Program-made: the position numbers and the translations under genes | Shown here: piece after piece, positions 1,271-2,893 of the stretch | Layout of the letters: every line of letters starts with the position of its first letter | How positions within the stretch are numbered: position 1 is the first letter of the stretch | The notes under the pieces: generated by a model | What the model was told of the DNA's origin: nothing | Databases searched by the model: none | The model's input: only the letters and a program-made list of their open reading frames with translations | From: a virus | Length of the DNA stretch: 37,134 nt | Strand: one strand, 5' to 3' | Virus record (IMG/VR): IMGVR_UViG_3300047510_001046 | Location: 1 to 37,134 of that record

Positions 1271-1441
1271 CTAGTCTTCATAATCCTGGTCGTCTTCAAC
1301 AGTTTTAGTAGACGGACGATGGACATCATCTTCAAGATCTTCCCAGTCATCCCAGTCGTAGTGTTCGCCATGTAAGTCTAGTTCTTTGTTCTTGGTGTTG
1401 CTCCTAACCAGAGCGTGTTTTTGAATGCTTGTTTTTTCCAT
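1271..1441 (-). CDS. Acidic 56-aa protein overlapping its upstream gene
   Basis: The frame begins at ATG 1441 (MEKTSIQKHALV) and ends at TAG 1271. Its C-terminal 35 residues are strongly acidic and aromatic (YDWDDWEDLEDD, then VEDDQDYED), which is typical of real acidic phage proteins and unlikely by chance. It overlaps the end of the gene at 1378-1656 by 64 bases in another frame. Either it is translated from its own ATG, or ribosomes reach it by a -1 shift near the stop of the upstream gene, where an A-AAG sequence lies just before the TAG. Acidic small phage proteins can mimic DNA or bind basic host proteins, but that role is only a guess here. Confidence 0.6.
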   Translation of the reverse strand: MEKTSIQKHALVRSNTKNKELDLHGEHYDWDDWEDLEDDVHRPSTKTVEDDQDYED

Positions 1442-1656
1442 GATTTGATTTTGTATTCTTTGATAACTTCATCTATGATTCTTTCCATATCTTTTGTTGA
1501 TATTAGATAGTTGTCAAAAGGTATGTGCTTCATACCTCTTTCATCAATGGTAGCATTTGCCAGAAGTTCAGAAAAAACAGCAGGGGGCTCAGCTGCTGCA
1601 TAGATTCTGGTGTAGCATTCCATTAATGCATCTTCATCAGTCTTCTTTGCTTTCAT
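1378..1656 (-). CDS. Hypothetical 92-aa protein
   Basis: No family is recognised. The first two thirds look helical and the C-terminus is basic (KIKSWKKQAFKNTLWLGATP). The start at 1656 overlaps the end of the thioesterase gene by 20 bases; a second in-frame ATG at 1623 is possible. The last 64 bases overlap the acidic 56-aa frame, and the basic tail followed by an acidic frame is compatible with a frameshifted fusion product. It sits in the middle of the tightly overlapping leftward cluster and so is co-transcribed with the thioesterase and the phosphoribosyltransferase-like gene. Confidence 0.7.
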   Translation of the reverse strand: MKAKKTDEDALMECYTRIYAAAEPPAVFSELLANATIDERGMKHIPFDNYLISTKDMERIIDEVIKEYKIKSWKKQAFKNTLWLGATPRTKN

Positions 1657-2056
1657 GGTCCTTTTTGTCTTGGGAAAGATAGCGATTTCTTACAACTTCA
1701 TCAATGGGTACAGCATCACCCATTTCATCTATACGTACAAATCTGACATTAGTATGGAGTACCACTGTTTGTGTACCGCTGTATACATTGTGAGCTCTAG
1801 CTTCCATGTATAGAGTGATGCTGGTATTGCCTATGTGCATAACGCTTGCATATATCTTAAGTAGCTGACCTTCTTTTGCTGGTTTTTTAAAGATGCATTT
1901 GTCAATCATTACAGTAACCATCCGGGGGTTATTGCAAACCTCCATGGCGTAGGCGGCTGCTGCTGCATCCAGCCAGGCCAGAAGTTTACCACCAAATAAA
2001 TTAGCATGAAATCCAAGATCTGATTTCTTGATAGGGTGTGTGGTTATTAAGGTCAT
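1637..2056 (-). CDS. Acyl-CoA thioesterase, hotdog fold (YciA/BACH-like)
   Basis: Enzymes of this family hydrolyse acyl-CoA to free acid and CoA. The protein (139 aa from the chosen start) shows the family pattern in order: HANLFGGKLLAWLDAAAAAY, the hotdog loop and helix with conserved Asn, Gly-Gly and Asp; then VTVMIDKCIFKKPAKEG, the strand leading to the 'hxxP...G' turn; then YASVMHIGNTSITLYMEA, the 'v..vG.TSi.v.v.' strands; and a last strand ending VRIDEMGDAVPI. The length fits a single hotdog domain. ATG 2056 is preferred because it forms a 4-base ATGA overlap with the upstream stop; ATG 2083 would add nine residues and a 31-base overlap. A metabolic enzyme of this type is unusual in a phage. 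Substrate chain length cannot be read from the sequence. Confidence 0.85.
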   Translation of the reverse strand: MTLITTHPIKKSDLGFHANLFGGKLLAWLDAAAAAYAMEVCNNPRMVTVMIDKCIFKKPAKEGQLLKIYASVMHIGNTSITLYMEARAHNVYSGTQTVVLHTNVRFVRIDEMGDAVPIDEVVRNRYLSQDKKDHESKED

Positions 2057-2532
2057 TTCCAATGTTTGTTTTCTCTTTCCCAATAGAATTCTAACTGTTC
2101 CTTGTTCCAGTCATAATATCGTCCTACTACATCACACTTAAAGCTGCTGTGTATGTTTTCATATTGAGCTACTGTGATTACTTCTTTGTCTACAATGTTT
2201 GTTAGTACGTTAACCATAAAGGTGTAGTTAGCGCCATTGATAATGCCAGCTTCTACCAGTACAAGTTTACTCTTAGTGAACAATGGTAGCTTTTTGATGA
2301 AAGCATCTCTGTAAGGCTGGGGGTCTTCGTCGGGGTATGGTACATCTATGGGTAGCATTTCCAGCATTTCCCCCATAGAGCTTAAATGATGTGCAACATG
2401 CATAGATATTGTGGAGCTGTAATCTGGTGATACATTTAGTATCAATGCGTTTAAAGGATTGAGATTGTAGTTCTCAAGATCCTTACAAACTCTTTGGATT
2501 GTGATCCACTCCTCGTTTCTGTTTACTTTCAT
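2053..2532 (-). CDS. Phosphoribosyltransferase-like protein, degenerate PRPP loop
   Basis: The 159-aa protein has the layout of a type I phosphoribosyltransferase. A segment KLVLVEAGIINGANYTFMV (about residues 88-106) sits where the family has a hydrophobic strand followed by the acidic PRPP loop and a Gly-x-x-Thr turn. Near the C-terminus FYWERENKHW resembles the W/P-WE ending of hypoxanthine/xanthine-type enzymes. The usual pair of acidic PRPP-loop residues is reduced to a single Glu, so catalysis may be lost or altered. It is the first gene of the leftward cluster, starting 91 bases from the divergent rightward operon. The family call is inferred from pattern only; an unrelated Rossmann-like protein is the alternative. 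Confidence 0.55.
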   Translation of the reverse strand: MKVNRNEEWITIQRVCKDLENYNLNPLNALILNVSPDYSSTISMHVAHHLSSMGEMLEMLPIDVPYPDEDPQPYRDAFIKKLPLFTKSKLVLVEAGIINGANYTFMVNVLTNIVDKEVITVAQYENIHSSFKCDVVGRYYDWNKEQLEFYWERENKHWK

Positions 2533-2623
2533 AAAATTTAAATTGCACTACTAATGTAATACTAAATTTGTAATGTTTAAACTTTTAACGTATATTTGAT
2601 TGTAAACCAAAAATATTTTAGTT
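2533..2623. promoter_or_regulatory. Divergent intergenic control region
   Basis: These 91 bases separate the leftward cluster from the rightward virion operon and must hold promoters for both. The rightward promoter is clear (2567-2598). For the leftward direction I see only a weak candidate, a TTTG on the minus strand followed after 20 bases by TAAAAGTT. The perfect palindrome GTTTAAAC (2575-2582) sits between the boxes of the rightward promoter and could be an operator. Confidence 0.55.
2567..2598 (+). promoter_or_regulatory. Bacteroidota-type promoter for the rightward operon
   Basis: TTTG (2567-2570) is followed after exactly 20 bases by TATATTTG (2591-2598). This is a full match to the known Bacteroidota vegetative promoter (-33 TTTG, -7 TAnnTTTG, spacing about 19-21). 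Transcription would start near 2602-2606, leaving a leader of roughly 20 bases before ATG 2624. Confidence 0.75.
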
Positions 2624-2893
2624 ATGTCAGCTACAAACCAAGAGCACGAAAACTACGAGGAACTTACACCTGAAGAGCTTGAACAGCAAAAGCAGGGCCT
2701 GATTGATTTTTACAAGTCATCTATTGAAACGCTTCAGATTCAGCTTGACTACGAGAAGCTTGTAACCGAGATTGAAGAGACTCGTCTTGGAAGACTTGTT
2801 GCTCAAGCACGCATTGCTCAGATCTTAGCACCTGCGCCTGAAAGTAACGAAGAAGAGGAACCAGCGCCCAAAAAAACTCTGAAGCGCTCATAA
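2624..2893 (+). CDS. Small acidic coiled-coil protein, first gene of the virion operon
   Basis: The 89-aa protein is helical and acidic. Residues 15-80 form one long amphipathic stretch (ELTPEELEQQKQGLIDFYKS, then a Leu/Arg-rich second helix), followed by an acidic and Pro-rich linker and a basic tail (KKTLKRS). No enzyme motif, signal peptide or membrane segment is present. Similar small helical proteins occur at the start of structural operons in Bacteroidota phages, but I cannot name a function. The leader is A/T-rich with no Shine-Dalgarno. It is separated from the next gene by 9 bases and shares the promoter at 2567-2598. Confidence 0.75.
   Translation: MSATNQEHENYEELTPEELEQQKQGLIDFYKSSIETLQIQLDYEKLVTEIEETRLGRLVAQARIAQILAPAPESNEEEEPAPKKTLKRS

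Follow-up and report, generated by a model that had tools for sequence, protein, structure and literature searches.

A predicted hotdog acyl-CoA thioesterase of Bacteroidota origin carried by unrelated phages

Main finding

The gene described here lies in a window of 37,134 nucleotides (the whole stretch of viral DNA analysed, IMG/VR record IMGVR_UViG_3300047510_001046) and, judging from its sequence and the predicted structure of its product, quite probably encodes an active acyl-CoA thioesterase with a TE6/YciA-like hotdog fold, captured, most likely once, from Bacteroidota and subsequently spread among unrelated phages that infect this phylum. Enzymes of this type are already known, also under that annotation in phage genomes; the breadth of its distribution across unrelated phages and its altered active site are new. 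A search of titles and the beginnings of abstracts, with subscription literature thinly covered, found no paper on this clade of phage thioesterases and, to our knowledge, the rewiring of host lipid and CoA metabolism by phages has been little studied compared with photosynthesis or nucleotide supply. If active, the enzyme would represent a common and compact handle on acyl-CoA in Bacteroidota phages, and since the cultured phage immuto_2-6A, which grows on Flavobacterium sp. LMO8, carries the gene, an experimental test is within reach.

The phage and its gene layout

The window carries terminase (PHROG_6681), portal, major head protein and tail fibre genes. The terminase search retrieved 123 phage records, the best of which, at about 23-26% identity, include crAss-like phages as well as phages of Flavobacterium psychrophilum, and it is on account of these distant matches that the phage is called crAss-like, as an informal assignment. 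The thioesterase belongs to a leftward gene group on the strand opposite to the structural genes, and this orientation makes host takeover, rather than virion assembly, a plausible putative role. The features of the window are collected in Table 1, including two possible promoters that follow the Bacteroidota-type pattern. Both matches lie between the leftward and rightward gene groups, inside the gap or on its border; their number is not significant, as 0.88 matches are expected by chance and at least two occur in 21 of 100 shuffles.

Table 1. Features of the window discussed in the text
Feature	Positions	Strand	Basis or remark
Thioesterase gene, 139 aa, single hotdog domain (4HBT)	1637..2056	-	ORF, Pfam, model, structure matches
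Codon of D30, catalytic Asp (D44 of YciA HI0827, D43 of the S. aureus enzyme)	1967..1969	-	
Codon of G15, site of the catalytic Asn in characterised relatives	2012..2014	-	
Upstream gene, 159 aa, PHROG_29004 (no assigned function)	2053..2532	-	4-base overlap (ATGA) with the thioesterase start
Downstream gene, 92 aa, no assigned function	1378..1656	-	20-base overlap with the thioesterase end
Possible promoter of Bacteroidota type, TTTG-N18-TAnnTTTG, preceding the leftward genes	2608..2637	-	Weak
Possible promoter of Bacteroidota type, TTTG-N20-TATATTTG, preceding the rightward structural genes	2567..2598	+	Weak
Tail fibre-type protein, 2322 aa	24772..31740	+	Matches many fibre families

Family and fold

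The thioesterase reading frame has a sound start at the ATG of position 2056, since Met1 is invariant across the 30 aligned phage rows. The product matches Pfam 4HBT (PF03061) at 4.7e-17, with 62.5 bits against a gathering cut-off of 20.6, and PHROG_18230 at 1.4e-21, and its single-chain AF2 model (mean pLDDT 92.5) has the hotdog fold, with a long helix, H23-41, wrapped by antiparallel strands. The 4HBT hotdog domain is thus complete and its match far beyond chance, as the preliminary description had claimed for this reading frame, and the motifs quoted there are present as well (H17-A-N19-L-F-G-G, D30 and G76-N-T-S79-I). Solved structures retrieved with the model include 1vpm, YciA HI0827, y2039, NmACH, S. 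aureus ACH, ACOT7 and ACOT12 at the top, with Z up to 18.2 and an rmsd of 1.4 over 117 residues, and the sequence matches in the PDB are acyl-CoA hydrolases or thioesterases, except for chains that bear no functional name. Among viral models, BFVD returned only two at E below 0.001, one of them named as a PaaI-type thioesterase. Taken with the terminase, portal and head genes of the window, the profile and structure matches bear out the proposal of a hotdog thioesterase fold on a true phage. PHROG_18230 is listed as of unknown function, and the match of the window protein, a predicted thioesterase, suggests that the family holds thioesterases of this kind and offers it a likely function.

In the proposed check on profiles of hotdog families, 4HBT is matched well above its cut-off. 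The best NCBIfam model, the YciA equivalog NF007970, scores 39 bits, far short of the 162 that it requires, so that by this rule the window protein is no YciA ortholog. Compared with YciA (HI0827) and the TE6 hydrolases (1vpm, NmACH, S. aureus ACH, Cj0915), it shares the fold, the domain length, the catalytic Asp, the FGG helix start, T48 and the G-x-T-S strand, but it is only 24-31% identical to them and has Gly15 where they have Asn.

Active site

The structural alignment with 3bjk (model position 1 to chain position 15) places D30 on D44 of YciA, and that with 5egj (model 2 to chain 15) places D30 on D43 and residue 15 on Asn28 of the S. aureus enzyme. Moreover, the alignment with 2v1o_A (model 4 to chain 13) sets residue 15 on Asn24 of ACOT7; the placement of Asn24 and Asn28 assumes a gapless short stretch, and the sequence alignments agree with it. 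D44 of YciA is named as catalytic (PMC10560148, PMC2698920) and Asn24 of ACOT7 is named together with Asp213 (PMC2698920). The latter source lists the Asp as the only catalytic residue of subfamily 2a, and its Table 1 does not treat the Asn as defining. Of the features expected of TE6 and subfamily 2a, the catalytic helix Asp is present as D30 and the second active-site Asn is replaced by Gly15; because PMC2698920 assigns a single catalytic Asp, the protein can still belong to subfamily 2a despite lacking the Asn. The assembly typical of these enzymes is a hexamer, built as a trimer of dimers.

Residues were counted in 84 phage copies, 50 near bacterial copies and 33 more distant ones, with the loci L085, L086 and L142 kept apart (L142 is the same gene as L086) and L141 left out. 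D30, T48 and S79 are unchanged in all 167 copies and FGG is invariant in the 84 phage copies, whereas residue 15 divides the set, being Gly in 83 of the 84 phage copies and in all 50 near bacterial copies and Asn in all 33 distant ones. H17 and N19 are each kept in 82 of the 84 phage copies. Two positions are specific to the phage copies, namely residue 24, which is Lys in 84 of 84, whereas Lys is absent from the list of the five most frequent residues at this site in the 50 near bacterial copies, and residue 31, which is Ala, Ser, Thr or Gly in 83 of 84 as opposed to Glu or Asp in 50 of 50 near bacterial copies. The Asn/Asp catalytic pair of the preliminary description therefore holds for its Asp, since every one of the 84 phage copies has D30, and fails for its Asn, because N19 is not the canonical Asn, which falls on residue 15. 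Gly15 in place of this Asn makes the chemistry a real question, and the Asn-less active site is a useful natural variant for the study of hotdog thioesterase catalysis.

Spread and phylogeny

In IMG/VR, 353 stretches encode relatives of the thioesterase; the best 80 of these, at 64-92% identity, form the viral set, and 27 of the 80 enter the tree. Four phage records, corresponding to three genomes, also match: immuto_2-6A (67% identity), an uncultured 642-kb phage (58%) and Xanthomonas phage XacN1 (38%). The idea that such genes are rare in phages is contradicted by these 353 viral stretches and by annotated phage genomes in which the gene was already named a thioesterase. Specifically, gene 50 of Flavobacterium phage immuto_2-6A ("hydrolase/thioesterase") belongs to the same clade as the window copy, but it is carried by a 160-kb phage and has thymidylate synthase and deazaguanine genes in its vicinity, and ORF409 of XacN1 ("acyl-CoA thioesterase") likewise has a 4HBT domain, but keeps Asn15.

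As exact 8-residue peptides found no bacterial relative, the bacterial scan was repeated using alignment, and 57 loci of the bacterial collection then matched, the closest of which, L085-L132, bear Bacteroidota titles. The chromosomal Bacteroidota thioesterases (L087-L132) are 40-59% identical to the window protein, supply the nearest tree rows and have Gly15, mostly His17, Asn19 and Asp30, as in the phage protein; they differ from it by Glu or Asp at position 31, by position 24, where Lys is not listed, and by their location on bacterial contigs. The genomic context of the near bacterial relatives is varied and revealed no shared partner.

The tree comprises 30 of the 84 phage copies, thinned at 95% identity, and 45 of the 57 bacterial-collection loci, with near-copies thinned and L141 left out; its inner forks are weak because it rests on only 135 columns. 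Twenty-nine of the 30 phage copies, together with the bin contigs L085 and L086, form one clade (support 100/99) that stands beside nine Bacteroidota rows (96/91), and the proposed phylogenetic check thus supports an affinity of the gene with Bacteroidota. The thirtieth, that of XacN1, pairs with a Balneolales copy and is, from its sequence placement, a separate and independent capture.

The two bin contigs are of different character. L085, from a Sphingobacteriales bin, looks phage-like by eye, with ribonucleotide reductase-like and fibre-like neighbours. The neighbours of L086 look bacterial by eye; this contig comes from MED-G21 (L086:5001-5390; genome G020), a small-genome marine bin that holds the phage-type copy and a second, less similar one. 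The order of MED-G21 was searched in 296 genomes, of which 95 give a match below 1e-30 and only MED-G21 itself exceeds 200 bits. The tree places L086 inside the phage clade at weakly resolved forks, and a grouping of the 29 phage copies and L085 without L086 is not rejected (p-AU 0.12), so that the MED-G21 copy may represent either a donor lineage or a capture back from phage.

Mobility and selection

The 84 thioesterase loci fall into 11 neighbourhood groups when linked by two shared neighbour families, and the median identity of the thioesterase between groups is still 72%. In 19 larger contigs, chosen by the author from the 80 IMG/VR loci, nine have a crAss-type terminase that covers most of the profile, another two give weak local matches to it, three have a T4-type capsid and seven have neither marker; since a crAss-type terminase is found in some and a T4-type capsid in others, the clade is common to unrelated phages. 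Purifying selection on the phage thioesterase is strong, with a median omega of 0.10 and a maximum of 0.23 over the 118 of 378 pairs that are unsaturated at silent sites (28 phage copies, left after L003 and L004 were set aside from the thinned 30), a rough value because most pairs are saturated. The proposed check on related phage genomes did not show conservation: among the contigs with the nearest terminases, which may be fragments, the thioesterase is present in 2 of 21 (those of 80 loci on contigs of at least 28 kb) and in 1 of 6 longer than 75 kb. The thioesterase is an accessory gene in the near relatives of this phage.

Proposed role and alternative explanations

In the favoured reading, a Bacteroidota host would have been the source of the gene long ago, most likely in a single capture, with later transfer between unrelated phages of Bacteroidota. 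Its product would form an oligomer with active sites between subunits, in which D30 would drive the splitting of the acyl-CoA thioester and the canonical Asn would not be needed. Expressed from the leftward, probably non-structural, gene group, the enzyme would lower acyl-CoA and release CoA and free acids in the infected cell, and host lipid and carbon metabolism might thereby be shifted towards phage production. A more far-reaching version, which is possible yet rather unlikely, is that a phage-adapted lineage with a reshaped active site circulates as cargo among unrelated Bacteroidota phages and seizes the acyl-CoA pool, perhaps starving lipid synthesis or an acyl-dependent defence; here the reshaping would have begun with Asn15 to Gly, shared with the bacterial kin, followed in phages by Glu/Asp31 to Ala/Ser and the fixation of Lys24.

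The loss of the canonical Asn, with that of the acidic residue 31 in nearly all phage copies but in none of the near bacterial ones, could also point to a hotdog protein that binds CoA esters with no or very poor hydrolysis and serves to sense them, to soak them up or to assist a host enzyme. This is decidedly unlikely, as Gly15 is found in the chromosomal relatives too, the invariance of D30 and T48 extends to every copy compared and the Asp is the only catalytic residue that PMC2698920 assigns to the subfamily. A different task on CoA or ACP thioesters, be it the hydrolysis of acyl-ACP or of a toxic or signal ester, or the removal of an acyl donor as counter-defence, would fit the phage-specific K24 and A/S31 and the status of the gene as mobile accessory cargo of unrelated phages with varied neighbours, which is the pattern of host-interaction genes; the nearest solved relatives are nevertheless acyl-CoA hydrolases, broad-specificity ones among them, and this analysis connected the thioesterase with no gene for defence or signalling, so that such a task has a slim chance of being the true one. 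Lastly, the Bacteroidota origin and the phage-type copy in the bacterial bin MED-G21 would be expected if a host gene had been misjoined to a phage contig, an explanation that is practically negligible because terminase, portal, head and tail genes are all present in the window, further viral contigs carry members of the clade (best 80 of 353, 27 in the tree), 295 of the 296 genomes of the MED-G21 order are without a phage-type copy above 200 bits and the isolate genome of immuto_2-6A, with a member of the same clade, refutes it.

Neighbouring genes

The upstream gene of the window had been described as phosphoribosyltransferase-like, a claim that is not sustained, as it has no phosphoribosyltransferase match in Pfam up to E 1 and no informative Pfam match, and hhalign against the phosphoribosyltransferase of immuto_2-6A gives a probability of 0.1; its model (pLDDT 46) is too poor for use. 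Nor does the proposed cluster behave as a functional unit, since the upstream gene is present at 3 of the 83 other thioesterase loci and the thioesterase directly follows its homologue in 2 of 14 viral relatives; on these counts, this gene was rejected as a partner of the thioesterase. Among annotated phages, its nearest relatives come from the cyanophages S-RSM4, S-SSM6a and S-SSM7, at about 40% identity, and are labelled as hypothetical proteins.

An acyl-carrier protein was likewise considered as a partner and ruled out, being detected in 0 of the 19 larger contigs with control genomes positive in 11 of 14, and a Pfam scan of 20 neighbour proteins revealed no lipid gene, so that the thioesterase has no pathway context. 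At the other loci, a thymidylate synthase family occurs within five genes of the thioesterase in 27 cases, and the other recurrent neighbours are mostly nucleic-acid or nucleotide genes, PhoH, a chorismate mutase-like gene, or genes of no recognised function. The chorismate mutase family, unusual for a phage, has members in 12 loci, and in this phage group a type II gene (Pfam CM_2, 1.6e-11; L008:10377-10676, + strand) begins right where the thioesterase gene ends. A spore photoproduct lyase-like gene (Pfam SPL, 3.9e-18; L017:7113-7946, + strand) is found near the thioesterase in nine loci.
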